This document shows positions 4,579 through 37,895 of a stretch of DNA of 64,000 nucleotides, one piece after another; the stretch's first letter is position 1; every line of letters begins with the position of its first letter. The stretch comes from an uncultured Candidatus Nitrosopumilus sp. (GTDB taxonomy: Archaea > Thermoproteota > Nitrososphaeria > Nitrososphaerales > Nitrosopumilaceae), in assembly GCA_951812655.1 (NCBI GenBank), contig OX638319.1, positions 1,279,620-1,343,619 on the forward strand. Reading direction: 5' to 3'. The notes below the pieces were generated by a model. It was not told where the DNA came from. It made no database searches and was given only the letters and a program-made list of their open reading frames with translations. The position numbers and the translations under genes were made by a program.

Positions 4579-4898
4579 CGATGTCTATTATTTGGAATGG
4601 CATTATAGATCAAATGTAAAAAAGTAGGCATCAAAGAGCTAATTTTATTTACAAATTATTATTTTTCCACTTATAATTTCACTATTTTTCAGTATATTTG
4701 ATAATTAATTCATATTTTTCATTCATTCGTATGTTCAATTTGTTTTGACATTGTTTTATCAATGACGTCGTTTAACTCATCAAAGAAAAAACAGATGGCC
4801 TTTTCTCAAAAAAATAAGAAAAACCTAACAGGTTAAGAAAGAGGGATAAACGAAATCAGAATCCGCAGATTTTTAACCGGAAAAAAATCAAATTTTCC
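4579..4898. other. AT-rich intergenic region
   Basis: A stretch of 320 bp between divergent genes. It is strongly AT-rich and no reading frame in it resembles a protein. The motif TTTTTAAC at 4870-4877 lies about 25 nt before the ATG at 4899 and is a likely TATA box for a leaderless transcript. The left part should hold the aminotransferase promoter. Confidence 0.5.
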
Positions 4899-5126
4899 AT
4901 GGACGAATATGTCAATGACATAAAGGATGCAGTGGAAGTTTATTTGAAAACTGGGCAGTACATAGTAGAGGAATCATCCAAGTTCAAAGACAAGATAAAT
5001 CCCGAAAACGGATTGGAATCATCAGACATTGAAGCCATGCTGAAACAAATCGATGCGTGGTCTGGTTCGTTTGGGGTAATATCTGATAGAATGAATCAAG
5101 TTTTGAGTTCAAGGAAAAAATCCTGA
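4899..5126 (+). CDS. small acidic helical hypothetical protein
   Basis: A 75-residue, wholly helical, charged protein without cysteines or membrane segments. The start is the ATG about 25 nt downstream of a TATA-like TTTTTAAC. It is monocistronic as far as can be seen. Family not recognised. Confidence 0.6.
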   Translation: MDEYVNDIKDAVEVYLKTGQYIVEESSKFKDKINPENGLESSDIEAMLKQIDAWSGSFGVISDRMNQVLSSRKKS

Positions 5127-5202
5127 ACCAAAAATAAATTTTGCGTGTCTGGAACTATACATTGTTGACGATGCAGCAGTCATGTTTTTGAAAACATCAA
5201 AA

Positions 5203-5718
5203 CTATGAAGAGAGATTGTTTCGCTTTATGATCTGAAAAAACTTTTCCTGCACATCTTTGTCTGCCCTTAGCAATGGGCTGGTGGTATTGTCCTTTGTAC
5301 CATGTACGTAGTCAAGATGAAACCAGTCATTGTCGAGAATCATCTCAATCTCGTCATCAAATATTTCCAAGTTGGGAGGAATCCACTTATACGCAAGTGT
5401 GATTGCTGCAATGCTCGAATTCGATGAAAGCAGTGTTATGTCTTCGGTCTTTTTTGTCGTTCGCAAGTTGTGATACTCTCCGTGCTCAAACATTACGATG
5501 TTGTTTTCCTGAATGGTTTTCCACGTGCCGTTGTTCCATACGTCCAGCTGTCCAGCAATAACATGTATCGCTTCGATGATGATGGAATGTTTGTGTGTAT
5601 GCTGTGTTTCGTTTACTGGCATGTATGCTATGACCGACCTCATGGTATCAAGGTCAAAGGATTCTCTTACTTCATCTGTTTTCTTGTTGATCCCTATTTT
5701 CTGATACTCGTCTCGCAT
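5203..5718 (-). CDS. cupin-fold protein
   Basis: A 171-residue cytosolic protein with one cupin barrel at about residues 30-105. HTHKHS and a later GEYHN are the candidate metal-ligand motifs (two His plus a later His). The C-terminal 65 residues are a lineage-specific extension. I choose the ATG at 5718; a GTG 30 bp upstream is possible but lies inside a 17-bp repeat. Small cupins of this type may bind a metal and a small ligand, but no reaction can be assigned. Confidence 0.65.
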   Translation of the reverse strand: MRDEYQKIGINKKTDEVRESFDLDTMRSVIAYMPVNETQHTHKHSIIIEAIHVIAGQLDVWNNGTWKTIQENNIVMFEHGEYHNLRTTKKTEDITLLSSNSSIAAITLAYKWIPPNLEIFDDEIEMILDNDWFHLDYVHGTKDNTTSPLLRADKDVQEKFFQIIKRNNLSS

Positions 5719-14641: not shown

Positions 14642-15889
14642 TTATTTTGTAGGATCCATTACCCTTCCAAGGAATAGGATTTCTCCTGTCTCTTTTTCCT
14701 GTATGATAAACATGAATGGATGATCAGCTATAAACTCAGATACTGGTTCTGGAGGACCGCTTGTTGCTCGTGCAACTAGTGCGGTGATTGCAGCAGCTTC
14801 CGTTCCCTCCTCATTTACGTTGACAAACGCCTTGTGTTTTGCCTGCTCAAGGTATATCTGCTCATCAGTTATTCTCTGAAAGTCTGCATTGTCTGGATCA
14901 AATGCGTCATGTAATCCAAGATTCTGTAATGGCTCTATCAAATCATATTCTGTCTCAAACTCAAACTTTGGAATCTGTACTGTAAGTGGCTGCCTTGTCA
15001 TGCTATTTTTTATGGAATCAAGCTTTTCCATATTCATGGATTGCTCAAGTAATTCAAGACCATCCCTGTCTTTTGGAAGCAGTACAATCATGGATATGTC
15101 TCCTCCAAGATAGTTTAGCTCCAGTGCCTCAAGATTGCCAGTTTTTGCATAGTTGTACATTGCAGCATTTTCCTTCATCATCCTAACTGTTACTGAATTT
15201 CCATTGTCTGACCAAAACAGCTTGTCACTTGTGTTTCTTGGGTTAAACTCTAATCCCCACTTTCCCTTGAAATATACCGCATTTGTGATTACCATGCGTG
15301 TCAACTCATCAGTGGAGCCTGGTGCAAGTATGTCCTGTACCTTGCCGTTTGTTTTTTCTACAACCCAATTGTTTATCCTGTCAATTCCGTCATCAGTTAC
15401 AAAGTTCACATCCTCAACGGTACTGGAATAGTGCTTCTGTGCCGTATCAAGATAATCTTGTTTTATCTCATATCCGTCCTTGACCCATAACGCGTTTGCA
15501 ACCTGCAGGTTGTACCAGTCATCCTTGTGGTTGAGTCTTTCAAGAGTATTGGAAATTGATCCCTTGCGTTCTTGCTTATCTGGAATGAATCCAAACGTTT
15601 TCTGCATTTCAGATGCGGTGTTACCTGCAGCTCCTTCATACGCCATGGAAAATGCGGTGGAGACGCTAAATGGTGAGAAAAACAAGTTTGAGTGTTTGTC
15701 TTTCTCTGCAATTTCTGAATAAAACGCAAAGACAAAATCCCTGTCTCCAGTTGATTCAACTTTTGAAGGGTTATCTTTTGTAAGAATTTCTGATGGTACA
15801 TCAGAAAACAGATACTGCCCACCAAACACAGCAGAAACTGCAACAATTCCTAAAACGGATAATGTGATAACTTTCCTTTTAGCATCCAA
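14642..15889 (-). CDS. exported serpin (serine protease inhibitor)
   Basis: A 415-residue serpin with an N-terminal signal peptide or anchor (residues 1-28). Serpins trap serine or cysteine proteases by inserting a cleaved loop into their beta-sheet. The shutter region NLFFSPFSVSTAFSMAYEG, the breach TNAVYFKGKW, the hinge EEGTEAAAITA (P15-P7 region) and the closing DHPFMFIIQEKETGEILFLGR are all present. By alignment to alpha-1-antitrypsin the scissile bond would be Thr-Ser in VARATSGPP, with Arg at P3. The all-small-residue hinge predicts a functional inhibitor. Closely similar to the serpin part of the gene at 35727. Confidence 0.92.
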   Translation of the reverse strand: MDAKRKVITLSVLGIVAVSAVFGGQYLFSDVPSEILTKDNPSKVESTGDRDFVFAFYSEIAEKDKHSNLFFSPFSVSTAFSMAYEGAAGNTASEMQKTFGFIPDKQERKGSISNTLERLNHKDDWYNLQVANALWVKDGYEIKQDYLDTAQKHYSSTVEDVNFVTDDGIDRINNWVVEKTNGKVQDILAPGSTDELTRMVITNAVYFKGKWGLEFNPRNTSDKLFWSDNGNSVTVRMMKENAAMYNYAKTGNLEALELNYLGGDISMIVLLPKDRDGLELLEQSMNMEKLDSIKNSMTRQPLTVQIPKFEFETEYDLIEPLQNLGLHDAFDPDNADFQRITDEQIYLEQAKHKAFVNVNEEGTEAAAITALVARATSGPPEPVSEFIADHPFMFIIQEKETGEILFLGRVMDPTK

Positions 15890-17250: not shown

Positions 17251-17673
17251 TCACATTGCATGAAAATCAATGTTTTTTCCAGATTTCACTTGAGGGCGTA
17301 TTGACCAGCGGCTTGAAATCTTTATTATAATTGAAAACATACCATAGCAAAACGCCCCGGATAATATGCCAAAAACTATGCCGGCCATAGGCCCCATCCA
17401 TCCTGAAAAAAAAGAAATTCCAACATAGCAAGATAATGCACCGGCAAGTAAATTATCAGACGTAATCACTTTTACGTTCTCTTTGTTTGCCACGCTTGCC
17501 CATGACAACAGTAACCACGTAACTGTGCTTGCAACCACTGCAATCAAAGTGACAGTAGCACTGGACATGGCTATTCCATCAATGACAAAATCTGAGGTGG
17601 TATTCTTATAAAACCACCAGACGGTTGTAACCGTGGCAATAACGGTGAAAATAAGAATTTTTTTCCATGTCAT
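17251..17673 (-). CDS. membrane protein with four hydrophobic segments
   Basis: A 140-residue protein starting at the ATG at 17673 (TWKKILIFTV). Hydrophobic segments are at about residues 4-20, 33-57, 78-95 and 97-117; the tail is basic. The frame is open for 21 codons upstream, but those give no better N-terminus. A 97-bp palindromic element lies about 90 bp upstream. Family not recognised. Confidence 0.55.
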   Translation of the reverse strand: MTWKKILIFTVIATVTTVWWFYKNTTSDFVIDGIAMSSATVTLIAVVASTVTWLLLSWASVANKENVKVITSDNLLAGALSCYVGISFFSGWMGPMAGIVFGILSGAFCYGMFSIIIKISSRWSIRPQVKSGKNIDFHAM

Positions 17674-17761
17674 GATTTGCTTTGTGAAAAAAGAGTGAAA
17701 ATATAAAATTACTAAAATATTTCTTATTTTTCTCATTTTGAAAACTACTTCATATTGAAAA

Positions 17762-21954: not shown

Positions 21955-22147
21955 TTTATTTCCCACTTACAAGAATTGCTATCAATGTAATGAGTATCAT
22001 TTTTGTCTCAAAACACCCCTGTAAAACTTCTAAACCCGTCAACCTACCTGTGCCAGGAGTCAGTCCTCTTTCCCTTTGTCACCTTGTACCTGTGGCATAT
22101 TCCGTTGCAAGTCATTTCTCTCAGTGGACGATATATTGGAATTATTT

Positions 22148-25100
22148 ATGAACGTCTCATTGCCCTGTTGTGGTATTGTGAGATATTTTGCATTATTGCT
22201 TATTTTGATTGGATTTACAGTAACTGCTTTTGCCGATGATACTCAAGATAATCCAGAGTCCACATCTGAACTTGACTGCAACTATCCAATCTGTCTACTA
22301 GAAGATAAGAACTACAAAAAATCAGTCCAAGGATCTGACTTTGTAATCAAGGTACAGGTAGAGCCTGAAACGAAATTCACTGCAAGAGTGTTTGATACCA
22401 AGTATGAACTGGCATTCATCGAATCTATCTTTGCAGACAAGGATGGAATCGCAAGGATCGTGTATCCTATTCCGAATGATGCAAAAAACGGAAACTATGA
22501 GGTCACGTACACAAGCTATACCAGCAAAGGTGCCATACATTCTGGCTTATTGCTGCAACTAGATGACGGGTCTGCATTACACGACGAGACTCGATTTAAA
22601 ATACATGCACACATGTATCGTCATGACAATGATCATCTCAAGCCAATTGTGATTAATGAGCCTATTCACATGGGAATTTCTACAAACTACAAGTTTGGAA
22701 ATGATACAAACATCCCTTTTGAATTTACAATCTTTGATCCTAACGGCAAGATCATTGACAAGGGTACAATTGTAAACAAGAAAGAGAGAATGGTTCGACA
22801 TACGTTTGTAACTGAGATTGACGGCATGCACACAGTGACGGTAAAGTCAGACATCAAAGGATTCGAGGAACATTCTGAAAAGTTTGGAGTGTTGAAAAGT
22901 GAATACATCATACATGAAAACAACAGAGATTACCAGGTGCTTGTAAGATCTACAGATGAATCAACTGTTGCGATAAACAACATGTATTTTGACAAGGATG
23001 AAAAACAGATAATATTTGAGCTGGAACCCACATGGTATTTCAGGGACATGCTGATAGTTGAGCTTCCTTACGGACTCCTGGATGGACCTTATGACATCAT
23101 TGTTGATGGGCAACTACAGCACATAATTCCCAATGGCGGATATCCTGGAGGAGTTCATCAAAGAGGGGATTTCACATCTTTGTCAGTACCATTGGAGTAT
23201 AACTCCACCAAGGTGCAAATTGTGGGCACCACCGTGTTTCCTGAAGTATCACAGGAGTTGACCGTAAATTTAAAAATTCTCGAATATGAGGCAGGAGAAA
23301 CGCTGACAATACACGGAACGTCTCTTCCAGAAGAAGAACTTCATGTCAAGATGTACACATCAGATGGAATACCTGCATTCTCGGATAGATTCACATCCGG
23401 ACTGTATGGCACCTTTGAGTACAATGTCATGACATGGCCAAAGCACTCTGCTGACTTTCCAGAGGGAAAGTACACCGTAGAGATATCAAATCCAGAAGGC
23501 AGAGAGAGACTAAAAACTATCGAGGTAAAATTTCAAAACAAGTCGGATTTATTTTCAAGGTTTCAGCATATTCCAATCAAGGATCAGATGAATTATTTTG
23601 AGATCCAACCAACAAAGATATCGTGCAAGGATGGCACGGTTTTGGTCATCAAGGACAAAGAAAATTCCCCTGCATGTGTGTTTTCTGCAACTGCTGAGAA
23701 ACTGTCTCAGAGGGGAGGATGGACAGTGGTGGAACACAAAATTGAAGTGAACTGGCTTGACTCATACTATGCATCTACAGATACAGGCATTGTGCGAATT
23801 ATGGATTCTCACATGAACATTAGTGTGGAAGATACGGATTATTTTGATATCTATGTCTGGTCTGACTCCGATCCTGAAGGGATAGAGATCAAGGTTACTG
23901 AGACCGGCAAAGACACAGATACGTTTGAGGGAACCGTATTATTTTCCAATTCTGGCAAGTCTTCTGAGGGGGCACTTTATGCTTCAACAGGTGATTCAGT
24001 CAAGGCATTTCACAAGGATGTCTTAGATTTGATGTTGCTGACAAATATTACTAAATCCGACATGATAAAACAATCCTCTTCATATGTAATAATCCCAAAA
24101 GGTGCAGCGATTGAAGGAAATGAGCATTTGATTCCAAAAGTAATCACAGTTGTATTGGGAGTAAACAACACGATAACATGGATTAATCGTGATGACACAG
24201 GTCATGGAATTGCAAGTGATGATGCATCTTGGGGCAGTCCTGGCATACTCAAACCAGGAGAATCATTTTCAGTAACATTCGACAGTACGGGAGATTATGA
24301 TTATCACGGTCAACCCGGTCCCTGGATTACAGGTAAAGTAATTGTACTTAACGCAGATTCGTTTTCTGTAATAAATCGTCAGGGCACATTCTACAAAGAC
24401 AGTAAAGATTCAGAAAAATTTGAAGAGTATAGGATACTAATGCAAGAAAAACAAAAAGATGTTGCATCACACGTTCTTGACATCCCCATTTCAAATGCCT
24501 ATGTTGTAGAAGGTTGGAACTTTCCATTCAGAGATGTTTCTGAAATAACACAAATGGTAGGTACAGACCCTGTTGCAATATGCAACATTCCAGAAAAGAT
24601 TCCCACACACCTGCAAAAGATTCATGAATCCGACATGTTTCAGATGTTTGCAGAAAAATATTCCCAGCATCAGTTGACAGTAGACATTTCAGATGAAAGG
24701 TACAGTGGCGGATTGGTTCACTATGATCTTATCGCAACATCTGACGATGGACTATTTACTGCAAGAACCTATTTTCATCTGGATTCATGCACTGATAATA
24801 TGAAATGGCCATACTTTCTACTTTGCAAAGACGTCAGAAATGAGGAGCACGTCTCCACGAGAATAAAGTCAGAGATAATCTCCAGTATTGAGAATGATGA
24901 ATTTTGCAATATAGATTTTGAGCCCTGGCATCAAGATCTTCGCAATTATCAGGCCATGATTTCAAAGGAAATAGACACGCTCACTCAGGGAGGTGTCCCG
25001 ACTGATTCTCAAGGCAATGCATCTTACAGGTACTTTTTGGATGTTCAAAGATTGGGACTGCTAAACGACATTATACGCTACTATGAGTCAGAAAATTCTG

Positions 25101-25195
25101 ACCAGGAAAAAATGCGAGAGAATGTTGCAGAATACAACAAGAAGTTTGGAAACCTCCCTGACGAACTATTGGATATTATTGAGCAAAGAAAATGA
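22148..25195 (+). CDS. large exported multidomain protein with cupredoxin-like domain
   Basis: A 1015-residue protein. I start at the ATG at 22148, which gives a signal peptide ending TVTAFA; longer frames hide it. In order: MG2/Ig-like sandwiches (about residues 40-250), the sandwich module with ELPYGLLDGPYDIIVDG and VQIVGTTVFPE (about 290-375), another sandwich (about 380-465), the C-x-DGTVLVIK..SPACVFSAT..LSQRGGW module (about 490-535), a cupredoxin-like barrel (about 650-740), and an alpha-helical C-terminus. In the barrel only the first copper ligand (His686) is kept; the Cys, second His and Met positions are Gly, Gly and Ile. No transmembrane tail. Coupled by ATGA to the next gene. Confidence 0.75.
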   Translation: MNVSLPCCGIVRYFALLLILIGFTVTAFADDTQDNPESTSELDCNYPICLLEDKNYKKSVQGSDFVIKVQVEPETKFTARVFDTKYELAFIESIFADKDGIARIVYPIPNDAKNGNYEVTYTSYTSKGAIHSGLLLQLDDGSALHDETRFKIHAHMYRHDNDHLKPIVINEPIHMGISTNYKFGNDTNIPFEFTIFDPNGKIIDKGTIVNKKERMVRHTFVTEIDGMHTVTVKSDIKGFEEHSEKFGVLKSEYIIHENNRDYQVLVRSTDESTVAINNMYFDKDEKQIIFELEPTWYFRDMLIVELPYGLLDGPYDIIVDGQLQHIIPNGGYPGGVHQRGDFTSLSVPLEYNSTKVQIVGTTVFPEVSQELTVNLKILEYEAGETLTIHGTSLPEEELHVKMYTSDGIPAFSDRFTSGLYGTFEYNVMTWPKHSADFPEGKYTVEISNPEGRERLKTIEVKFQNKSDLFSRFQHIPIKDQMNYFEIQPTKISCKDGTVLVIKDKENSPACVFSATAEKLSQRGGWTVVEHKIEVNWLDSYYASTDTGIVRIMDSHMNISVEDTDYFDIYVWSDSDPEGIEIKVTETGKDTDTFEGTVLFSNSGKSSEGALYASTGDSVKAFHKDVLDLMLLTNITKSDMIKQSSSYVIIPKGAAIEGNEHLIPKVITVVLGVNNTITWINRDDTGHGIASDDASWGSPGILKPGESFSVTFDSTGDYDYHGQPGPWITGKVIVLNADSFSVINRQGTFYKDSKDSEKFEEYRILMQEKQKDVASHVLDIPISNAYVVEGWNFPFRDVSEITQMVGTDPVAICNIPEKIPTHLQKIHESDMFQMFAEKYSQHQLTVDISDERYSGGLVHYDLIATSDDGLFTARTYFHLDSCTDNMKWPYFLLCKDVRNEEHVSTRIKSEIISSIENDEFCNIDFEPWHQDLRNYQAMISKEIDTLTQGGVPTDSQGNASYRYFLDVQRLGLLNDIIRYYESENSDQEKMRENVAEYNKKFGNLPDELLDIIEQRK

Positions 25196-27076: not shown

Positions 27077-27460
27077 ATGCCTGCAAAAGGAAAAGTTAGC
27101 GTTGGTTGGCAGATAGTTTTTGCAATAATGTCTCCTGTCAATTTGTGGGCGTTTTACAGAATCAAGAAACTCAGATCGTATGCATTGTATGTAATAGTTC
27201 CATCAGCAGTCATCAGTTCCATTGTTATTGCAGGAGTGTTTTATGAAATGGCCAATCCTGAAAGAGGTTTTGATGATGATGGAAACAGGTACCCTGAACC
27301 AACACTTCCCCCACACATGACTCCGATAGAACCACAAGTTGGAAAATTCAACACCGGAACATACATGATTCTCAACATTGCTGCATCAGTTGGCCTGACG
27401 ATACTTTCAGCCTATCTGGCGATAAAATGGTCAAGGCAATGGAATGAACAGTTCAACTAA
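27077..27460 (+). CDS. small two-helix membrane protein
   Basis: A 127-residue protein with hydrophobic helices at about residues 10-27, 32-54 and 94-115. A Pro-rich loop (PEPTLPPHMTPIEP) lies between the last two. The start is the first ATG after the palindromic element. Family not recognised. Confidence 0.55.
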   Translation: MPAKGKVSVGWQIVFAIMSPVNLWAFYRIKKLRSYALYVIVPSAVISSIVIAGVFYEMANPERGFDDDGNRYPEPTLPPHMTPIEPQVGKFNTGTYMILNIAASVGLTILSAYLAIKWSRQWNEQFN

Positions 27461-27839: not shown

Positions 27840-28196
27840 CTAATTAGAATTGCTTTCAATGTTTTTTGTGATTGTCTTGGCTAGTTCTTTGCTTTCTTCT
27901 GACTCGATTATTATCTTGGAGTAAAAGTCAGACTTTAGCACCAAAATTAGATAGTCATGCTTTCTTTTCTTGACATACCAGAATTGCTTTTGAGTTCCTG
28001 CAATGTACGTTCCAATCTCCAATACTTTTGGTAGATTTGTTCCGACAACTTTGAATCCTGACAAGTTGTGAGAGGGTTCTGAAAATGCTGAAACGATGTT
28101 GCTGTATGGGATGTAAAAGGATCCTTTTGCAGCACCAATTTTTTCCAAGATGTTGAGATTGATTCTCAAGTGATCATCGTAAAGAAGTATCTTCAT
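27840..28196 (-). CDS. PH-like domain protein, last gene of the 28-38 kb operon
   Basis: A 118-residue cytosolic protein. I start at the ATG at 28196 (KILLYDDHLRINLN), which lies 23 bp inside the preceding gene. Strands followed by a C-terminal helix (SEESKELAKTITKNIE) fit a bacterial-type PH domain. No signal peptide, so it is the only clearly intracellular product of this operon. Role unknown; membrane or protein binding is typical of the fold. Confidence 0.55.
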   Translation of the reverse strand: MKILLYDDHLRINLNILEKIGAAKGSFYIPYSNIVSAFSEPSHNLSGFKVVGTNLPKVLEIGTYIAGTQKQFWYVKKRKHDYLILVLKSDFYSKIIIESEESKELAKTITKNIESNSN

Positions 28197-28875
28197 TTTC
28201 TTCTCCAAAGTTAATTCCCAACCTGAGATCAACTGGAAGTGAGTGTTGTATCAGTTCAGGCATGTTGCATGGAAGCAACTCATCAGGCAAATCCACATGA
28301 GTCCCCCAAAACTCAAAATATCTCTTCTCTTCTATGTTGATTAAATCACGGTATTCCACAGCATGTGCCATCTTCGAATCGCCTCCAAAACAGTGAGAAA
28401 CAAAGGTATCGCCTGGATACAACGTGCTTGAATATTGAAAATAATTTTCAGCATCTTCTGTCAGATGATGTTCAAATTCCACCATGATCTCTTTTGATTC
28501 CTCATCGAGTAGAATCACGTTGGAAATATCAAACAGTCTGTTCCTTTCCACCATTTCGTGATTTTCTGGAATGTATGCAAATTCCCCATATGTTGGAGGA
28601 AACACGGTTCTGACTTGAATGTCCTCATCAGGATAAAAGATGTCCCGAGGTGGCCTGCAGATATACTGCTCAGAATCAAGTGGAACACACACATATCCGC
28701 GCTTGCTTTCCTGGTTTTCCTTGCAGATTATATCACACCCATCTTCAAATTCTTGCTGTTTCATTTTTTGCAAGTAACTCCAATGTGGGATTTCGTCTGA
28801 TTCTGCCAGGATCAATGCTGTGACAACCGCAACCAATATGCCCATACAGATAATTATTGCATGCTCCAGTTTCAC
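28174..28875 (-). CDS. exported Cys-containing protein
   Basis: A 233-residue protein. I choose the GTG at 28875: a GGAGG lies eight bases upstream, and the protein then begins with an anchor or signal peptide (KLEHAIIICMGILVAVVTAL). The ATG at 28977 would add a hydrophilic leader and overlap the previous gene by 32 bp. Cysteines pair as CDIICKEN, YVCVP, YICRP, SHCFGG and PCNMP. Eighth gene of the nine-gene operon. No family recognised. Confidence 0.6.
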   Translation of the reverse strand: MKLEHAIIICMGILVAVVTALILAESDEIPHWSYLQKMKQQEFEDGCDIICKENQESKRGYVCVPLDSEQYICRPPRDIFYPDEDIQVRTVFPPTYGEFAYIPENHEMVERNRLFDISNVILLDEESKEIMVEFEHHLTEDAENYFQYSSTLYPGDTFVSHCFGGDSKMAHAVEYRDLINIEEKRYFEFWGTHVDLPDELLPCNMPELIQHSLPVDLRLGINFGEENEDTSLR

Positions 28876-28945
28876 ATTCGTATCCTCCAAACAATAGACC
28901 CGTTGGATATTGCTGCAACTTTTCTTCCAGTTTTCATCTTCTATT

Positions 28946-30028
28946 TCACCGTGTGGAAACCAAGAACATGTCATCATGATTGTACTCTGAGAAATATTGT
29001 GAAACGATGAATGTTTTTAGTAACTCCAGATCTGATCCTGTAATGGCATATGTGAATCCGTCTAGAATGAATTCGACATCATAGTCGCGAAATTTCTCAG
29101 GCTGTTTGCTGTTTTTATCCATCGCACTGCCTCCAATTCTAATCACAGTATCACCGATCTGCCAAAATTCCGAATTTGATTCTGCCAGATTCGAAAAAGA
29201 CCTTTGGTCTTGTGCAGATGTGTTTCTTATCTGAAAGGAGACATCATGATAGTATGAGGAGCCAAAATCAGAATACCTTGCATGGACTTGATTTTGATGA
29301 GAGCTGATTTCTGCCAAGGCAAGTCCTGCAAAATCTACAGGAATCTCCGAATGGTCGGGATTTGTTTTCTCATACGAGTCAACTAGGATTTGGGAGCCGT
29401 GACGAATCTCTTGCATTGACATGGTGCGTCCGACTCCAATGACGCCATTTTCCTGCATGGTCCAGACAGGAGGTTCCACATACAGAGAACCGTCATCGTC
29501 AATTGACAGATCAAGGTATGGCAGACCCAGAGGAGAATCAGTCATCACAGGATACGGATACATGTTTGCACCATCGATCGGTCGATACATAGAGCCCCAG
29601 CAAGGATCCTCCATTCTTTTCCGTCCTTCATCAGGCCAGTATTTCACCTGACAGTGAACGCCCACGGACAATGAACTGTATGCCCTAAATGCCGAGACAT
29701 CGTCTTCATTACCTCCCAATTCTTCGGATAGGCGAATCAGGATGAATTTCTGAAAGACGTCTCGGTTTGTCGTATCCTCTGGATTTGGATAGTAGAAGAA
29801 TTCCATCGTGTTTGGTTTCATTGATGTTACTTTGGAAAAATCAAAATCGGATTCAGTGATGTCAGTTTCATCAATTTCGGTTTCAAAAGTTTCAATCATG
29901 CACGTGTCGCCATTTCGAACTCCGCCATTTTCTGCACAAAGTCTATCCATGTTCATTGAATCAACTGCAAAAAATACGAGAACGGACGCAACAGCAATTG
30001 CAGAAATTGTCAAGAACCTAGTCTTCAT
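28946..30028 (-). CDS. exported Rieske-fold protein lacking the iron-sulfur ligands
   Basis: A 360-residue protein starting at the ATG at 30028, 4 bp inside the previous gene. An N-terminal signal or anchor (1-24) is followed by a Cys pair (CAENGGVRNGDTC) and a domain at about residues 75-190 that follows the Rieske pattern: AFRAYSSLSVGVHCQVKYW, DPCWGSMYRPIDG, then YLDLSIDDDGSLYV. In Rieske proteins box 1 is CTHLGC and box 2 CPCHGS. Here the four ligand positions are Ser121, Gly123, Asp141 and Trp144, while the two disulfide cysteines are kept as Cys126 and Cys143. The fold is probably conserved without a cluster. The remaining 170 residues are unrecognised. Confidence 0.65.
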   Translation of the reverse strand: MKTRFLTISAIAVASVLVFFAVDSMNMDRLCAENGGVRNGDTCMIETFETEIDETDITESDFDFSKVTSMKPNTMEFFYYPNPEDTTNRDVFQKFILIRLSEELGGNEDDVSAFRAYSSLSVGVHCQVKYWPDEGRKRMEDPCWGSMYRPIDGANMYPYPVMTDSPLGLPYLDLSIDDDGSLYVEPPVWTMQENGVIGVGRTMSMQEIRHGSQILVDSYEKTNPDHSEIPVDFAGLALAEISSHQNQVHARYSDFGSSYYHDVSFQIRNTSAQDQRSFSNLAESNSEFWQIGDTVIRIGGSAMDKNSKQPEKFRDYDVEFILDGFTYAITGSDLELLKTFIVSQYFSEYNHDDMFLVSTR

Positions 30029-30690
30029 TTTCCAAAAATCCACGAAACCAAACTATCCAAGTAAACAAATATTCCAAAGAATGGTGCATCATCACCTGCT
30101 GTATTCATTTGTTCTACTTTTACCACTTGACATACACCTTCAACATACCCAGTACCGGGACCACAAAGTGATGTATCATGGTCGTTTTCAGGCACAATTT
30201 TTTTCCAACTGCAACTATGTATGTCATATATCAGACCAGTGTAATCTGGAAGAGAATCATACTTGCATTCAGATGGAATACGATGAGATGCGGCAGGATC
30301 AATCAAGTAATCATACGAAGACTTGGCTTCATTAAAAATATGAACATAGAATACAATCTTGTCTCCAATTTTGTACAGATTGGGAGTGTAAGACATCCCG
30401 TGAGGTTTTTCAAGATATTCTCCGTGCGCAGAAATGATGTCATGCTCAAAGGAATTTTTGATAAAATCATGAACTTTGATTGAATAGACTACCTTACCGG
30501 GTGTCTCCCTGTAACTGTTTTCGTCCTGAGTCTGGACAGATTCAGACAGTACTTCTACAGATAAAACTTCCCCGTAGAAAATAAAATCGGCTCGCTCATA
30601 TGATCTCTCACGATCTAATTCGGGTACAGCAGAGACAGTCCCAAAAAACCCTAAAACAAAAACAAGTGTTATCAAAAGCCTAGTCTTCAT
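30025..30690 (-). CDS. exported NTR/TIMP-like protein
   Basis: A 221-residue protein with a signal peptide (1-21, TVSA). The RADFIFYGEVLSVEV start, a strand with VVYSIKVHDFIKN, and KIGDKIVFYVHIF fit the NTR (netrin/TIMP-like OB) fold. A CGPGTGYVEGVC motif follows near residue 175, and the C-terminus (FFGIFVYLDSLVSWIFG) may be a short anchor. Overlaps both neighbours by ATGA. Three neighbours in the operon share the same domain. Activity unknown. Confidence 0.65.
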   Translation of the reverse strand: MKTRLLITLVFVLGFFGTVSAVPELDRERSYERADFIFYGEVLSVEVLSESVQTQDENSYRETPGKVVYSIKVHDFIKNSFEHDIISAHGEYLEKPHGMSYTPNLYKIGDKIVFYVHIFNEAKSSYDYLIDPAASHRIPSECKYDSLPDYTGLIYDIHSCSWKKIVPENDHDTSLCGPGTGYVEGVCQVVKVEQMNTAGDDAPFFGIFVYLDSLVSWIFGK

Positions 30691-31340
30691 TTTCTTTTTC
30701 TCTGTCTTCTACAATAAACGAAAGTAATTCCACACCCAAGACCAATCACCATTAAAACAAAACCTACGGCGTAAGGAATGTAAAATTCAAACAGCTCCCC
30801 CTCTGTAATGTCTTGTGAGCCATCTACCATTATTGTCTGGCCAGGACCAATGTACCTAAAAGACGAGATGTCCGCATTGGGATCCGTGTGAACATGATAG
30901 ATTCCTGCCTTTAGCGGGATCATCTCTATTGAATATGAGAACGTCTTGTCTCCTTCCAACACGTATGCGTCTGGTTCTGGCGTGATATCCATGTACCAGT
31001 GATTCTGACTGAGAGGTATGAGAATCGGCTTTGTGCACATCTCCTGGACCACACATGAAAAATTGGATTTTAAAAGACTGACAAACCATGAATCGATACT
31101 TGCATAATCGAACCTGATGTCCATTTTTCCCTGGATGTCTCGTTCTACCAGAGATGAAAGGGTGCCGTTTACGAAGAAAGACTCACCTACCGATACCGTC
31201 GTTTTTGAAATGCTCTCGTTCTCAATTCTGTAGTATGCCGTGTCAAACCTAGCTCCGAGCCCATGCCCATACGCCTGAAGTTCCGCATACGTTGCAAAGA
31301 CTAGAAAAAATACAATAATTGTCGAAAGCCTGGCCTTCAT
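30687..31340 (-). CDS. AmoB-like exported protein (stand-alone paralog of ammonia monooxygenase subunit B)
   Basis: A 217-residue protein with a signal peptide, one cupredoxin-like domain and one C-terminal membrane helix (about 186-207), the same plan as archaeal AmoB. The segment GLGARFDTAYYRIENESIS, the GTLSSLVERDIQG stretch and KAGIYHVHTDPN..IGPGQTIMVDG align with archaeal AmoB. The copper-site histidines are retained: His26, which becomes N-terminal if the signal is cut after AYG, and His149 and His151 in YHVH. About 25 extra residues with two cysteines (NFSCVVQEMC) sit before the HVH region. No amoA or amoC is nearby. Overlaps both neighbours by ATGA. Homology is read by eye; function is inferred only as copper binding. 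Confidence 0.75.
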   Translation of the reverse strand: MKARLSTIIVFFLVFATYAELQAYGHGLGARFDTAYYRIENESISKTTVSVGESFFVNGTLSSLVERDIQGKMDIRFDYASIDSWFVSLLKSNFSCVVQEMCTKPILIPLSQNHWYMDITPEPDAYVLEGDKTFSYSIEMIPLKAGIYHVHTDPNADISSFRYIGPGQTIMVDGSQDITEGELFEFYIPYAVGFVLMVIGLGCGITFVYCRRQRKRK

Positions 31341-32521
31341 TTTCTATCCTCAACAGTAATCTGACCGGTCACCCAAGGTTTAATGGAATAATCAAAGGTT
31401 CCAGTTTCATTCATCATCATATTGTAATTGTCATTTGGAAGTAGAGAGAGTATTGTTAAACTCAGTTTATCAATTATGATGCTGTGGGCAACATCGTCTT
31501 CATTTTTAATTACAATTGTTTCACCCAATCTCATCACAATTGGGGGTAGTTGTTGTGGGCTATTGGCCAGACTGCTGTTTTTTGGAATCATCAGCCTTTC
31601 ATATTGGTTCAAATCTTCGTAAAGATCAGTGGCACCAAATAGTTTTATAGTTTCAATATAATCATCATGTTCTACGGCAAGGTAATTCCCTTTGATTGTT
31701 GTTCTATTGTCGTCAACTTCCTCTCCATTGACATAAACCATCCAGATGGTATCGATGAAATGGGTCGGGATGTAGATTTCTACAGCGTTAGTTTGTGTAT
31801 CCAGTACAAAATATTTTACTGTGTTATCATCATCGTTGAAAAGTGATCTGAGGTTATAGTTCCGCTCTTTTTCTGCAACTAATTCATATTCATAATACAT
31901 TGCTCCAATGCCTGGTTTTTCGGTACTTGATTCCCATCGAATCACAAAATCACCGTTATTCTTGACGTGAAAATGAGGAGGATCTCCGTTATCATATGGA
32001 CTAAACTTCCAATCAGGCTCAAAAATTCCAACAGGTTCAGAAAAAGTTCCTATTTTTTTATCAGTATTTACAAGACGGATGTTTCTTTCTTCCATCCAGG
32101 CAATGTAGATTTGATCATTATGATGTGCAATTTGTGGATGAGCGCCAGGCCAGAGAATTTCTCTCTCTAGTGTTACGCCTTTGTCTTTGCTGGTTGCAAA
32201 TACCATGGTATGAGAATTCTGATAGTTTTGATGCCAAACCATGTATGGCTGCCCATCGAAAACCATCATGGAGCCTCCTGTAGATTCCTCATTGTCTATA
32301 GCGACATCGATTGGTTCTGAGAATGTATGGCCTTGACCATAATCATGGCTATAAGAAAATAACGGAGAGTTTTTCATGCGGTTGTTTTCTATTTTCAGAT
32401 TTTCAATCCAGAATTTGTAAACATATTTTTCATCTTCGTCAAATAAATCAAAAGAAGTTACCAGTAATACTGCACCCAGTATTACAAAAAACAATGGAAC
32501 GACTAGGTAAGATCTATTCAT
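31337..32521 (-). CDS. exported protein with propeller-like, sandwich and cupredoxin-like parts
   Basis: A 394-residue protein starting at the ATG at 32521. An N-terminal anchor (1-22) is followed by repeats resembling sialidase Asp-boxes (MVWHQNYQNSHTMVFATSKD, YIAWMEERNIRLVNTDK), suggesting a small or partial beta-propeller. Next comes the sandwich module (VEIYIPTHFIDTIWMVYVNG) and a C-terminal cupredoxin-like barrel with one His kept (DDVAHSI) but a shortened ligand loop (FDYSIKPWVTGQI) lacking Cys, His and Met. Probably structural or binding rather than electron transfer. Overlaps both neighbours by ATGA. Confidence 0.65.
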   Translation of the reverse strand: MNRSYLVVPLFFVILGAVLLVTSFDLFDEDEKYVYKFWIENLKIENNRMKNSPLFSYSHDYGQGHTFSEPIDVAIDNEESTGGSMMVFDGQPYMVWHQNYQNSHTMVFATSKDKGVTLEREILWPGAHPQIAHHNDQIYIAWMEERNIRLVNTDKKIGTFSEPVGIFEPDWKFSPYDNGDPPHFHVKNNGDFVIRWESSTEKPGIGAMYYEYELVAEKERNYNLRSLFNDDDNTVKYFVLDTQTNAVEIYIPTHFIDTIWMVYVNGEEVDDNRTTIKGNYLAVEHDDYIETIKLFGATDLYEDLNQYERLMIPKNSSLANSPQQLPPIVMRLGETIVIKNEDDVAHSIIIDKLSLTILSLLPNDNYNMMMNETGTFDYSIKPWVTGQITVEDRK

Positions 32522-33567
32522 TTTCTTTTTCTCCAAATCGCAAAAACAGATCCTCCGACCACACCTCCAACAATTACAACAGTAAACAAAATTAACACGT
32601 AGATGAATTCATAATCGTAATCACGACTGGGGTTCACATTTAGACGATTTAATTTGTCATACGCATCATCCCACTTCACACCAGTAGTATCACCATCATT
32701 TTCTGAATTCACTACGCAAATGCCGTCTTGCAATGTTGTACCCGGTCCACATTTCTCAGGGACTGGTCTGTCTGGTTCGGGTTCAGGGGTAGGTCCATCA
32801 TGAGTCCATCTCGCCGGTGCTTCTTCATACAATAGAACAAATGACACGTCATCCATCAGTTCTTGAACTTTGTTTCCAATAGTCAAATCAGGGGTCCATA
32901 AAACGAGGATGTCTCTTTCATAGTCTATTGCAATTGATGCAATCGGTAATTCAGTATGATCTAATCCGTGACTAAACAATCCATCCATTAAATCATCTAG
33001 TTCTCCATCAGTCATCTTCGGGGAATCCGCAGGCAATACGATAGAACCGCGAGATACTGCATCTCTGTAAGATTTTCTCTCGTCTGCATCCTGGTATTGT
33101 TGTAAAAGAATATCTTCTTTCTCTGAATAATAATTACCATCCTCAGGCCCTGGCTCCCACACATAACCAGCAGGAGGGGCAATCAGTTTAGTAGTACATT
33201 GATTGGTCTTTCCATTTTCAACATACACCTTGTAGGTTTTTCCAATTTTATAATCTACGTTAACTGACGAACTCATCACTGTGTCATTTTCAAGGAATTC
33301 CAATTCGGAATTTTCTAAAACATGTTTCGGGACATTGGCTTCACCTTTGATCACGTTATGGATAAGGAAAGTAACCTTTTGGGGCCTGTCATAATTATCC
33401 ATACGGGTTACAGTTCCCGTAAATACCAATTCAGATTCCGACAATACGACATCCCAGATAATTTCACTTTCTGCCATACAAAGTGCAAAAGCCTGATCAA
33501 TCCAGACTAAAGGAAATGCGAATATTGCAAAAGCAATCCCAATGATTGCCAAAAACCTACTCTTCAT
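32518..33567 (-). CDS. exported NTR-like protein with C-terminal membrane anchor
   Basis: A 349-residue protein starting at the ATG at 33567. Signal peptide to about residue 29, then an NTR/TIMP-like domain starting at the mature Cys (LCMAESEIIWDVVLSESELVFTG) and including YKIGKTYKVYVENG. A CGPGTTLQDGIC motif follows near residue 272, and a C-terminal helix with a basic end (IYVLILFTVVIVGGVV..WRKRK) anchors it, so the protein faces outward. The middle contains a helical LDDLMDGLFSHGLDHTELP stretch. Overlaps the upstream gene by 11 bp and the downstream gene by 4 bp. Confidence 0.65.
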   Translation of the reverse strand: MKSRFLAIIGIAFAIFAFPLVWIDQAFALCMAESEIIWDVVLSESELVFTGTVTRMDNYDRPQKVTFLIHNVIKGEANVPKHVLENSELEFLENDTVMSSSVNVDYKIGKTYKVYVENGKTNQCTTKLIAPPAGYVWEPGPEDGNYYSEKEDILLQQYQDADERKSYRDAVSRGSIVLPADSPKMTDGELDDLMDGLFSHGLDHTELPIASIAIDYERDILVLWTPDLTIGNKVQELMDDVSFVLLYEEAPARWTHDGPTPEPEPDRPVPEKCGPGTTLQDGICVVNSENDGDTTGVKWDDAYDKLNRLNVNPSRDYDYEFIYVLILFTVVIVGGVVGGSVFAIWRKRK

Positions 33568-35716
33568 TTTCAATCATACCTGAACATTTAGCTAATCTGT
33601 TTTCTGTCATTTTTTTATGGTCTTCATACCAGTATTCTTGGCCATTATGATACCTCTCATACAGTTCTTCACATGATGAATTTGCTGCAAAGGATTCTTC
33701 AATATTGCTGCAATAAAGAACCTTGTCTCTTGCAATTTTTCGGTTATCATCGCTAAGGTATTGCTCTTCCGTATTCCTTTGGATGATCTCATCACAAGAC
33801 ATCTGTTTCAAGCTTTCCATCTCATTGGAAATTTCTTTGTCTCTTGGCTGGATCATAAGAGGCAAGACATCTTCTTGCTTGTCAATACACTCATGCATCC
33901 TTGTGTTCCATGCATCTGCTGTCTCTTTGTCAGGAAATTCCTGGAAAATGTGCTCAAGTTCACTACAATCCATTTCTAGAAATTCATTGGCAGAGGGAAT
34001 GTGTGCGGGTTCTGAAGGAGAAGTCATTGTAGATTCCGATTCCAGACATGCAAAATTCTGCAAGATGGTTGGATGAAAAACATCTCCATTTGAAACTTGG
34101 ATTCGGTAATATCCGGGTTTGTCACAGACAAACACTTCAAAATCACCACCCGCAGGATACGACTCTTCGGTCATAGAATATAGGTTAAAGGTGCCATGTG
34201 TTTCATCAGATTCATGACACATTGTTTCCGAACTGTTTTCAAACACTGGCCGATCATGGCTGTCAATTATTCCTAGTTTGAGGTCCCAGCAACCCGAATA
34301 GTTTCCCCACTCTAGCAAATCAAACTGGACCTTGTCTCCCACATCGTAGTGATTTTGGTGTGAAGTGATTGCATATTCCAGATATTCTTCTCCCGGATGG
34401 TATTGCTGTGAATATTCCCATACTGCTGCCCTTTTTTCATCAAGGGTCTCAACAGGAGTGCTGTTGAAACTGAATGTCCCTTCTAACATCATAGACATTA
34501 CGTTTCTTCCCGTCCAGTCTAATTCCATGACTGGATCAGGGCCGGCAGGCAGCATCAATCGAAGTTTTGCCCAACCTCGTTTGACGAGTTCCGACTCAGT
34601 GTCTGGATAGACGCATGCAGGATTGTAGTGAGTATTCCAAACAGGGTGTTTGTCCTTGTCACAAATGACATGTCCCAGTTTGATTCCCATTTTCATTTGT
34701 TTAATCGGTGAGGGAATAACGTTTGAAACAGATTCTTCATCTGTAGCATGAACAGCCTCCCATTGACCAGAAGGCATTGCGGTGTTTTCTGTTTCTTCAA
34801 CGCAAATTCCATCTTCCAGTACTGTCCCATGCCCGCAGATTTCTTCTAAGGATACGTCTTGTTCAGGTTCTGGAATTAATGATTCATCTTCAAAAATATG
34901 TTTGTCAGGATCAACATCATAGTAATCAGGAACGCAAAGGTCAATGTAGGCCGCAGGATTTATTGGCATGCTAATTGGCGGTTTTTCATTAGGCAGTACG
35001 GGGCGGATTTCAATCAGGTCACGCGCGTCACAGTTTCCAAAAGTCTTTGCAGACGCAATGGTTGCAGTGTACAAATTCTGACTCTCCAGTTTTTTGAGGT
35101 AAAACAATCCATTTTCAAACAAGTCAAATTCCAAGTCATCAGGGTTTTCAATTGCTGTAACCATGTCGGATCTTTTCTCTCCCTTGAAGTACTGGTTTAC
35201 CTTAATGTGGTATAGTGGGGCATGATCTCCCTCTACTGTCATTGCAAGATCAGTCTCAATTAGTGTGCCATCCAAAATTACATCATGGTAATTCCACAGT
35301 AACAACGGAGCATCAGGGGAACTGTCTTTAACTGCATTCCAAGATATTTCAAAACCTAATGCCTCATCAAAATTCATTCCATAGATGTTTGGAACATCGC
35401 CTTGCAGAAAATAGTACTGGTGTACGTTTTTGTGTGCACCGCTGTTGTCTTGCTCAAACCAGTCTCTTAAGGCATTGTTCTTTATCGCAGTTTCTAGTTG
35501 CTGTTTTTTTGATTCCATCCATGTTGAACCCTTATGATCATAATACGGCACCCAGTCTAGTTTTTCTTGTTCTAGTCCGGGATGGCAGCCCCTACAGCCA
35601 TAACATGGAGCATCAGACCAGTCTTGATTTTCCATGCATAGTGCATCAGCGTGTTGCGTATAGCCAAGCAATGAAATTGCAATTGTTGCAAATATTATCA
35701 AAAGTTTAGTTTTCAT
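33557..35716 (-). CDS. large exported Cys-rich modular protein
   Basis: A 719-residue protein with a signal peptide ending HADA. It begins with a dense Cys cluster (APCYGCRGCHPG), then an NTR-like domain (about residues 130-260), CGHGTVLEDGIC (about 294), the module GHVICDKDK..YNPACVYPDT..LVKRGW (about 345-385), a beta-sandwich (about 440-575), and three C-terminal helical repeats, each bounded by cysteines: DCSELEHIF to HEC, SCDEIIQRN to YCS, SCEELYERY to KCS. No membrane segment at the end. Ten bases separate it from the serpin fusion gene upstream. Function unknown. Confidence 0.65.
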   Translation of the reverse strand: MKTKLLIIFATIAISLLGYTQHADALCMENQDWSDAPCYGCRGCHPGLEQEKLDWVPYYDHKGSTWMESKKQQLETAIKNNALRDWFEQDNSGAHKNVHQYYFLQGDVPNIYGMNFDEALGFEISWNAVKDSSPDAPLLLWNYHDVILDGTLIETDLAMTVEGDHAPLYHIKVNQYFKGEKRSDMVTAIENPDDLEFDLFENGLFYLKKLESQNLYTATIASAKTFGNCDARDLIEIRPVLPNEKPPISMPINPAAYIDLCVPDYYDVDPDKHIFEDESLIPEPEQDVSLEEICGHGTVLEDGICVEETENTAMPSGQWEAVHATDEESVSNVIPSPIKQMKMGIKLGHVICDKDKHPVWNTHYNPACVYPDTESELVKRGWAKLRLMLPAGPDPVMELDWTGRNVMSMMLEGTFSFNSTPVETLDEKRAAVWEYSQQYHPGEEYLEYAITSHQNHYDVGDKVQFDLLEWGNYSGCWDLKLGIIDSHDRPVFENSSETMCHESDETHGTFNLYSMTEESYPAGGDFEVFVCDKPGYYRIQVSNGDVFHPTILQNFACLESESTMTSPSEPAHIPSANEFLEMDCSELEHIFQEFPDKETADAWNTRMHECIDKQEDVLPLMIQPRDKEISNEMESLKQMSCDEIIQRNTEEQYLSDDNRKIARDKVLYCSNIEESFAANSSCEELYERYHNGQEYWYEDHKKMTENRLAKCSGMIENEE

Positions 35717-35726
35717 TTTTAATTTC

Positions 35727-37895
35727 CTATTTTGTCGGATCCATTACCCTTCCAATAAACAGGATCTCACCAGTGTCTTTTTCCTGTATTACAAACATGA
35801 AGGGATGATCTGCGACAAATTCTTCCACAGGTTCAGGAGGCCCGCTTGTGAATCGTCCAACCAATGCGGTGATTGCAGCAGCTTCCGTTCCCTCCTCATT
35901 TACGTTGACAAACGCCTTGTGAACTGCCTTGTCAAGATAAATCTGCGCATCTGTTATTCCATGAAAATCAGCATTGCTTTTGTCAAAGGCATCACGTATG
36001 TCCAAGTCTTTCAGTGTGTCTATCAGATTATATTTTGTCTCAAAATCAAACTTGGGTATCTGTACTGTAAGAGGTTCTTGCGTCATACTGTTTTTTACGG
36101 AATCAAACATCTTGCGGTTTACTGACTGTTCAAGGGACTGCAACCCGTCTTTCTCTTTTGGAAGCAAGATAATCATGGAAACATCTCCCCCCAGGTAGTT
36201 TAGCTCCAGTGCTTGAATGGAATCAGTTTCTGCATAGTTGTACATGGCAGCAGGCTCTCTCATCATGGGAACCGTGACGGTATTGTTCTTGTCAGTCCAG
36301 AATTGTCGCTCACTAGTGTTGTTTGGATTGAACTCCATTCCCCATTTTCCCTTAAAGTAGACAGCATTTGTGATTACCATTGCAGTTAGTTCGTCAGTAG
36401 ATTCTGGATCAAGTATGTCCTGAATCTTGTCGTTTGTTTTTTCTTTGACCCAGTCATTTATCCTGTTTACTCCATCATTTGTGACGAAATTCACATTGTC
36501 TACGGTACTGGAATAATACATTTTTGCAGTATCTGTGTAATCTTGTTTTAGTTGGTATCCTTCTTTTACCCACAATGCGTTTGCTATTTGCAGTTTATAC
36601 CAGTCATCTTCGTGATTAAACCTTGAAAGAGTGTCTGAAACCTCTTGATGGCGTTTGGAGTCATTTTCCTCAAAACCAAACACTTGCTGAATTTGGGATG
36701 CCGTTTCTCCTTTTGCTCCCTCATAAGCAATTGAGAAGGCAGTCGAGATGCTAATAGGTGAGAAAAACACGTTATAGCTCCCATCCTGTTTTGCAACTTG
36801 AGAGTAAAATGTAAAAACAAAATCATCAAGGTCACCGGGGTAATCGGCGAACCCTGACTCATCAATACCTTGAGACGGTTCAGATTCTAATACATTCAGT
36901 TTCTTTGTGATCTTCTGATTCTCAAGTGAAATGCTTATTGTGTATGTGCCAGGATCCATCATTATCTTTTCAGGATGCCCATCCATCGTGTATTGAGATC
37001 TATGACCAGAGCCTGCAGACGGAACCCATCCCGCATTGTCATGGAAATGGGGCTCTCCACTCCAGACGATGTTTTTTTCTTCATCAGAAATTGTGATAAC
37101 GGGTATGTTGTTGTTTTCTACAAAATCAGTCACCTCGATTATAAAATCAAGAGGTGTTGAATCGTCAACCTGCTTTGGCATGTCGAGCAATATTGTTGGA
37201 AGTGCAGATCTGAATTGAAGATATCTTTGATTATCCACGTGCATCCATCCCATATCCATCAAAGGAGAAACACTGGATTTTTTCACACACGCGACTGAAC
37301 CGTTTCCCCTAAACATCAATTGGTTATCATTTCTACAGTTTACATCACCAGGAGTGATTCCCGATTCAAGTTGTTTTAACGGAGGCAATGAATCCCTCAC
37401 CATCCCTGCAGGAGTCAGAAATCCATTACATGTCTGATACGGATTAAAGAATAGTGCAGGTCCACCTCTTGCATGATCCTCACCTGGCAATGTGGATAGT
37501 CCAATCATGTCTCTGGGCATACATTGTTCTGTTGCTTTTCGTGAATGCTCTAAAATGATATGCTTATCATTTACTTGTTTGAGATAAAAAAGAACCCTGT
37601 CACCTTGCTCAAAGAACTTTGGATAAAACCACTGTTCATTGTCTCTATTTGGGCCATAAACTGTAATCATCTGCTGAGGTTTTTGATTTTTGAAAATCTG
37701 CTCTACTTGGATATCATGTCGAACTAGATTTTCTGAATCAATATTTGTTGTCGAAACTACAGTTCCGTCAAGAATAATATCTGCACCATCCCAAAATTCC
37801 ATCGGATGGCCCATGATAAGCCCATACGAATCAACTGTGGTTGTTACAAAAACAGAGAATCCGATTAAGAGGAAGAAAATCACAAGATGCTTCAT
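35727..37895 (-). CDS. NTR-like domain fused to a serpin, first gene of the exported-protein operon
   Basis: A 722-residue exported protein. Signal peptide 1-23, NTR-like domain about 25-135 (FWDGADIILDGTVVS, EQGDRVLFYLKQV), a DVNCRND..GSVACVKK..LMDMGW module (about 184-225), a sandwich-type linker, then a complete serpin domain from about residue 353. The hinge is EEGTEAAAITALVGRFTSGPP; by alignment the P1-P1' bond is Thr-Ser with Phe at P2 and Arg at P3. The serpin half is very like the 415-residue serpin at 14642, but the fused N-terminal half is absent there. It heads a nine-gene operon. Confidence 0.85.
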   Translation of the reverse strand: MKHLVIFFLLIGFSVFVTTTVDSYGLIMGHPMEFWDGADIILDGTVVSTTNIDSENLVRHDIQVEQIFKNQKPQQMITVYGPNRDNEQWFYPKFFEQGDRVLFYLKQVNDKHIILEHSRKATEQCMPRDMIGLSTLPGEDHARGGPALFFNPYQTCNGFLTPAGMVRDSLPPLKQLESGITPGDVNCRNDNQLMFRGNGSVACVKKSSVSPLMDMGWMHVDNQRYLQFRSALPTILLDMPKQVDDSTPLDFIIEVTDFVENNNIPVITISDEEKNIVWSGEPHFHDNAGWVPSAGSGHRSQYTMDGHPEKIMMDPGTYTISISLENQKITKKLNVLESEPSQGIDESGFADYPGDLDDFVFTFYSQVAKQDGSYNVFFSPISISTAFSIAYEGAKGETASQIQQVFGFEENDSKRHQEVSDTLSRFNHEDDWYKLQIANALWVKEGYQLKQDYTDTAKMYYSSTVDNVNFVTNDGVNRINDWVKEKTNDKIQDILDPESTDELTAMVITNAVYFKGKWGMEFNPNNTSERQFWTDKNNTVTVPMMREPAAMYNYAETDSIQALELNYLGGDVSMIILLPKEKDGLQSLEQSVNRKMFDSVKNSMTQEPLTVQIPKFDFETKYNLIDTLKDLDIRDAFDKSNADFHGITDAQIYLDKAVHKAFVNVNEEGTEAAAITALVGRFTSGPPEPVEEFVADHPFMFVIQEKDTGEILFIGRVMDPTK

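Follow-up and report, generated by a model that had tools for sequence, protein, structure and literature searches.

An AmoB paralog with retained copper-site histidines outside the amo cluster of a Nitrosopumilus genome, and its possible role as a mimic docking on AMO

The key enzyme in archaeal nitrification is AMO, whose assembly, loading and regulation in ammonia-oxidizing archaea are poorly known. A stretch of 64,000 nucleotides from an uncultured Candidatus Nitrosopumilus sp. (GCA_951812655.1, contig OX638319.1, positions 1,279,620 to 1,343,619; hereafter the window) carries a gene whose product resembles the AmoB subunit of this enzyme. What could an AmoB-like protein do outside the amo cluster? 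A previous sequence-only reading of the window proposed three functions, namely a copper chaperone, an alternative subunit, or a domain re-used for another task. The gene and the elements of its product are the following.

30687-31340, minus strand: AmoB-like gene, 217 residues (open reading frame and homology)
31266-31340, minus strand: predicted signal peptide, residues 1-25, ending in ELQAYG directly before HG (sequence; Gly or Ala before the His in paralogs)
31263-31265, minus strand: His26, predicted mature N-terminal His, at the place of the first AmoB copper ligand (aligned to His1 of 4O65)
31005-31100, minus strand: insert of about 32 residues compared with canonical AmoB; its Cys96 and Cys102 are conserved among close paralogs
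30894-30896, minus strand: His149, first His of H-x-H (alignment to AmoB)
30888-30890, minus strand: His151, second His of H-x-H (alignment to AmoB)
30834-30851, minus strand: IGPGQT motif, residues 164-169 (sequence)
30693-30803, minus strand: C-terminal transmembrane helix, ending in RQRKRK where canonical AmoB ends in TRPWQVI

The boundaries and length of this open reading frame had been given exactly, the minus strand having been left unstated. The proposed architecture, a signal peptide, one cupredoxin-like domain and one C-terminal helix as in archaeal AmoB, agrees with both the sequence and the fold prediction, and a single helix is predicted at residues 180-216. Signal and transmembrane predictions for this protein and for the other proteins of the islands discussed below were made from hydropathy and sequence. 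The suggestion that the HG pair becomes N-terminal after a cut behind AYG is also borne out, as ELQAYG-HG ends the hydrophobic segment and the predicted cleavage would turn His26 into residue 1. In the alignment, Gly or Ala precedes the corresponding His in homologs that retain the copper site. The YHVH motif occupies residues 148-151.

A phmmer search of the PDB returned archaeal AmoB 4O65 as best match (E=7.5e-6, residues 26-175), with His26 aligned to the mature His1 and H149/H151 to the H-x-H of AmoB, which is the correspondence that had been claimed for His26 and YHVH. A profile built from five close paralogs, with canonical AmoB excluded, matched 4O65 with E=2.8e-6, and the canonical AmoB of the same genome matched the AmoB-like protein at 2e-19 (small database). 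In the control search, reversed island proteins gave no match from any AMO subunit. The homology is thus significant although Pfam Monooxygenase_B reached only 15.6 bits, under its cut-off of 22.7. This model is weak for archaea: it scored 23.9 for the canonical AmoB of the genome and 26-31 for three other paralogs. Neither Copper-bind nor Cupredoxin_1 of Pfam, indicative of type-1 blue copper (plastocyanin) proteins with their Cys-His-Met ligands, matched the AmoB-like protein, and no Pfam or NCBIfam match to the CopC or PCuAC family profiles was found. AlphaFold models reached pLDDT 74 with an alignment of 16 sequences and 84 with one of 28 sequences (83.6, pTM 0.72), the N-terminus of the mature model being of low confidence (residues 3-8 under pLDDT 50). 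When both models were compared with known structures using Foldseek, 4O65 headed the PDB matches (E 3-4e-8; for the model with pLDDT 83.6, TM 0.60 by target and 0.48 by query), in agreement with the likeness to archaeal AMO proposed before. PmoB/AmoB chains came close behind, and general beta-sandwich domains also scored. Judged from sequence, the gene is a real, divergent AmoB paralog, and the homology is firm.

The genome is a single contig of 1.67 Mb with one intact canonical amoA-X-C-B cluster near 258-262 kb. This cluster contains a separate canonical amoB (259942-260508) and the only full amoA, and is the only complete amo cluster found; a second amoC lies away from it, at 1584709. About 1.05 Mb separate the AmoB-like gene from the cluster, a gap that would shrink to about 0.62 Mb on a circular chromosome, consistent with the remote location first reported. 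Two further AmoB-like genes, at 1503066 (82%) and 1423437 (72%), bring the number in this genome to three. Of the 95 genomes that represent the genus, G068 and G094 have close paralogs; those of G036, G008 and G093 are more divergent. Among 400 genomes of the order, 17 passed E 1e-12, a few of these being canonical AmoB, and true paralogs include those of Nitrosarchaeum (G323) and Nitrososphaeraceae. The relatives are patchily spread across ammonia-oxidizing archaea. A weak match (G000:1323737) was rejected as an unrelated cupin/DtxR-like open frame. The viral contigs searched contained no AmoB-like relative, and a virus or mobile carrier of the gene was rejected on this ground. No description of AmoB paralogs was found in the open-access literature searched. 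The paralogs of Nitrososphaeraceae (G116 and G179; L170:7921-9087 and L171:8040-9122) are proteins of 360-388 residues, comprising an AmoB-like histidine-brace domain and a polytopic membrane domain. These fusions recall CopC-CopD fusions.

In a tree of 30 sequences, the close AmoB-like group was placed outside canonical AmoB, while G036b, G036c and G008p were placed inside it (joint clade 100/100; deeper branches weak), indicating that AmoB was duplicated more than once. Pairwise dN/dS among the close copies ranges from 0.14 to 0.25, and the AmoB-like copies are under purifying selection. As a baseline for retention, we used 79 columns invariant in 11 canonical AmoB sequences, of which 18 paralogs keep 39% on average. 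Far above this average, His26 and His149 are each retained in 15 of the 18 paralogs and His151 in 17. At the TRPWQVI C-terminus, invariant in canonical AmoB, residues T183, P185, V188 and I189 are retained in none of the 18. Given these counts, copper binding is probably kept in most paralogs and the AMO-type C-terminus in none. A clade of three members (L043:5042-5653, L009:1435-2046, L167:8758-9348) lacks two of the three His, namely the N-terminal one and the first of H-x-H, with the rest of the domain kept. What emerges firmly is a functional, divergent family of AmoB paralogs, located outside the amo cluster and with its copper-site histidines retained.

The neighbourhood of the gene in the window includes the following features.

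27840-37895, minus strand: operon of mostly exported or membrane proteins holding the AmoB-like gene (open reading frame listing, domain searches)
35727-37895, minus strand: exported serpin-domain protein at the operon head (PF00079, 405 bits)
31337-32536, minus strand: upstream operon gene with a cupredoxin-like domain at its end, type-1 copper ligands apparently absent (sequence)
31337-31340, minus strand: 4-base ATGA overlap with the upstream gene (sequence)
30687-30690, minus strand: 4-base ATGA overlap with the downstream gene (sequence)
30025-30690, minus strand: downstream operon gene, exported, 221 residues, with a 78% identical homolog near the AmoB-like gene of G068
27077-27460, plus strand: 127-residue membrane protein with the AmoA extracytoplasmic loop (Pfam Archaeal_AmoA 32.0 bits, cut-off 25.6)
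27290-27349, plus strand: AmoA-type loop YPEPTLPPHMTPIEPQVGKF (comparison with the genome's own amoA)
17251-17736, minus strand: 161-residue membrane protein like Amt2 residues 295-415 (33% identity, E from 1e-6 to 4e-13 according to the filtering)

The operon of exported proteins that had been described is a minus-strand run from about 37.9 to 27.8 kb. The product of 31337-32536 shares 26% identity with the C-terminal part of the product of 22076-25195; both are exported and have cupredoxin-like domains whose type-1 copper ligands are seemingly lost. Serpins recur in AmoB-like islands, at 35727-37895 and 14642-15889 in the window and at L167:9330-11513, L041:14803-15999 and L040:2479-3726 elsewhere. 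Across ten AmoB-like loci, no conserved copper-transport neighbours were seen, and a copper-transport neighbourhood was rejected as the setting of these genes. Cassette exchange driven by a fixed motif at DNA junctions was rejected as well: the guessed pattern barely exceeded the reversed control, and the listed gene starts share no upstream motif. The earlier statement that neither amoA nor amoC stands beside the AmoB-like gene is right for the adjacent genes, but a search for AmoA copies detected the gene of the AmoA-loop protein (27077-27460) only 3.2 kb away.

In this 127-residue protein, the loop reads YPEPTLPPHMTPIEPQVGKF, against YPRPTLPPYMTPIEPQVGKF in AmoA. Over a stretch of 20 residues, 17 amino acids and 46 of 60 nucleotides are identical to the genome's own amoA, and 9 of the 17 identical residues share their codon with it. 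The codons have diverged and the amino acids have therefore been maintained; recent copying of AmoA or AmoB pieces was rejected for the same reason. The protein is one of a family common in Nitrosopumilus, in which the other members mostly have different loops at this place. HTH_5 regulators of G093 and G267 also carry the AmoA loop, flanked by a hydrophobic segment on either side, and exceed the Pfam AmoA cut-off; a beta-propeller protein of G093 that has the loop stays under it. The loop forms the apparent external segment of the membrane HTH_5 regulators at L179:4687-5307 (G093), L180:4892-5587 (G267) and L237:1408-1839 (G068, partial). Orphan AmoA-loop proteins of other genomes, two of which are membrane HTH_5 regulators, all score above the Pfam AmoA cut-off. 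Among the 56 better genomes, an AmoA-loop protein is present in 4 of the 5 with an AmoB-like gene versus 7 of 56 overall (hypergeometric p=4.5e-4, relatedness and genome size being ignored). Several genomes carry an AmoA-loop protein and no AmoB-like gene, and G094 shows the reverse.

Pieces of other components are likewise found in exported and membrane proteins. In G036, G045, G057, G068 and G069, exported proteins contain an AmoB segment (FIRIEDETFNRQSLQTGET..G.L) that directly precedes their terminal transmembrane helix. A segment of AmoZ, a protein assigned here by comparing its position and size with those of Nmar_1507 in PMC10030591, is carried by membrane HTH regulators of 253-281 residues. 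At least 12 genomes in the genus, this one among them, have the regulator divergently oriented to an AmoZ paralog. In the sampled proteome of this genome, the C-terminal 150 residues of the regulator match only AmoZ and its paralog. The regulator (L181:1996-2823, minus strand), whose AmoZ-like segment is predicted to be extracytoplasmic, and the divergent AmoZ paralog (2843-3157, plus strand) are followed here by the second amoC (4695-5273, plus strand). An exported von Willebrand A-domain protein of G036 (L233:3086-4897) has an N-terminal part 88% identical to a 42-residue AmoZ segment; this piece is a more recent copy, with 83% nucleotide identity. Membrane proteins resembling the C-terminal half of Amt2 are often located near AmoB-like genes (17251-17736, minus strand, in the window; L175:5690-6538, L244:2164-3009 and L245:1440-1853), and Amt2-like pieces adjoin AmoB-like genes in G008 and G068.

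Amt failed as a negative control for re-use, given the Amt2 pieces in island proteins, and was replaced by a wider control on core proteins, in which about half of the genome was sampled (880 open reading frames). Matches to island proteins were obtained for 83 of the 880. Many of these are module-sharing exported proteins, including an S-layer-like protein of 1736 residues, and others are ordinary genes situated within the fetched neighbourhoods. Among 67 core proteins with at least three hydrophobic segments, those with island matches are Amt2, AmoA, one PPIase-like protein and a blue-copper protein, the last by way of its cupredoxin domain. Many of the island loci had been selected via AmoB or AmoA matches, which inflates the figures for AmoA and AmoB and not for Amt2. 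Reversed-sequence controls of the AMO-piece and core searches gave no matches. Since S-layer-type and other exported proteins share island modules, module re-use in the islands is not exclusive to ammonia proteins.

In the explanation that we favour, at a little short of an even chance, the protein acts as an AmoB mimic that binds copper and docks on AMO or on its partners, and not as an alternative catalytic subunit. The membrane-anchored paralog would face the pseudo-periplasm and, after signal cleavage, would most likely bind one copper through its N-terminal His and His-x-His (a histidine brace), as a protein distinct from the AmoB of the working enzyme. It would be part of a set of variable-island proteins re-using exposed parts of the ammonia machinery, namely the whole AmoB domain, the AmoA loop, AmoB and AmoZ segments and Amt2 pieces. 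A copied contact surface could bind AMO subunits or a matching mimic, candidate docking segments being the RIEDETF strand of AmoB and the PTLPPYMTPIEPQVGKF loop. Island proteins might thereby become attached to AMO, or might influence or monitor how it is assembled and what copper state it is in; from these patterns we infer the copper binding, the docking and any regulatory role. In PMC10030591 the soluble domain of AmoZ is modelled against AmoB, in keeping with a reading of the AmoB and AmoZ segments as interface pieces. As one paralog clade has lost its ligands, copper appears not to be essential to the whole AmoB-like family, and this counts against such a mimic. Also on the opposing side are the incomplete co-occurrence of AmoB-like and AmoA-loop genes, the selection of most island loci through AmoB or AmoA matches, and the sharing of island modules by S-layer-type and other exported proteins. 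Among the three functions proposed before, the best fit is a domain re-used for another task, given that other island proteins likewise re-use AmoA, AmoB, AmoZ and Amt2 pieces; a copper chaperone is possible and an alternative subunit is disfavoured.

A stand-alone Cu(II) carrier or buffer, that is, a membrane-tethered histidine-brace protein storing copper or passing it to AMO and blue copper proteins like CopC, PCuAC and PmoD, is unlikely but deserves consideration. The selective retention of the ligand His and of the small residue preceding the N-terminal His speaks for a carrier, and the extra polytopic membrane domain fused in Nitrososphaeraceae (G116, G179) is reminiscent of CopC-CopD fusions. 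Histidine-brace proteins are, moreover, often copper carriers (PMC10952591). However, no locus has a conserved copper-transport neighbour, the ligand-less clade persists, and the AmoA, AmoZ and Amt2 pieces would be left unexplained. The fast variation of the islands, their multiple domain copies in mosaic combinations, the serpins found in them and the origin of the pieces from exposed proteins could also point to decoys, island proteins that present copies of abundant and conserved surface proteins and thereby divert AMO- or Amt-targeting viruses, toxins or predators to the wrong protein. We consider this quite improbable: decoys would need no retention of copper ligands, the HTH regulators with AMO segments suggest sensing instead, the viral contigs hold no relative, and we know of no attacker using AMO as receptor. 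It is harder still to believe in an evolutionary by-product, in which fragments were recycled into new exported proteins with no role tied to AMO or copper. The islands do shuffle modules, with other exported proteins among the sources, but dN/dS values of 0.14-0.25, amino acids kept while codons diverged, retention specific to the ligands and the AmoZ regulator-paralog pair kept in at least 12 genomes all argue against it. Least credible is an alternative AmoB subunit replacing canonical AmoB in AMO under some condition, which would suit the archaeal AmoB architecture, the ligands and 4O65 as top fold match, but is disfavoured because TRPWQVI is lost in all paralogs, an insert of about 30 residues is present, some paralogs lack the His and the only complete cluster is the canonical one (full amoA there alone, second amoC elsewhere), and because the close group branches apart from canonical AmoB and the distribution is patchy.

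A copper-binding mimic docking on AMO could be one element of an AMO-mimic system in some ammonia-oxidizing archaea, a broader proposal that we offer as a possibility well short of an even chance. Copper-binding AmoB copies of the islands and membrane proteins with AmoA, AmoB, AmoZ or Amt2 segments would dock on the machinery of ammonia oxidation, and one-component membrane regulators would sense via their AMO segment, so that the cell could read or tune AMO assembly. Should the copied surfaces prove to be docking sites, these would mark partner-binding parts of AMO and provide testable reagents for an enzyme whose purification is difficult. Gene counts can also be misled by fragments of AmoA and AmoB outside AMO, because the 127-residue protein passes the Pfam AmoA threshold though it is no AmoA.

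Compared with known systems, the protein shares with archaeal AmoB (4O65 of Nitrosocaldus yellowstonii and the AmoB of the same genome) the signal peptide, the N-terminal His, the cupredoxin domain, H-x-H, GPGQT and one C-terminal helix. It differs in its identity of only about 30%, its two-Cys insert and the lack of the TRPWQVI terminus, and its gene lies outside the amo cluster, in several copies per genome and outside the canonical clade. The duplicated AmoB of G036, G008 and G068 are also located in exported-protein islands, with ligands kept and TRPWQVI lost, but are about 51-62% identical to canonical AmoB and end in WRKRK or similar; those of G036 and G008, which were tested, branch within the canonical clade and thus represent a separate, younger duplication. 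Bacterial PmoB and AmoB share the N-terminal cupredoxin domain with the copper B site, whereas the AmoB-like protein has neither the second cupredoxin domain nor the second helix, and the match is weaker. CopC, PCuAC and PmoD, small exported copper proteins of which the first two have a histidine-brace-like site, may work alike, but the AmoB-like protein has no Pfam match to any of them, and its sequence and predicted fold point to AmoB.
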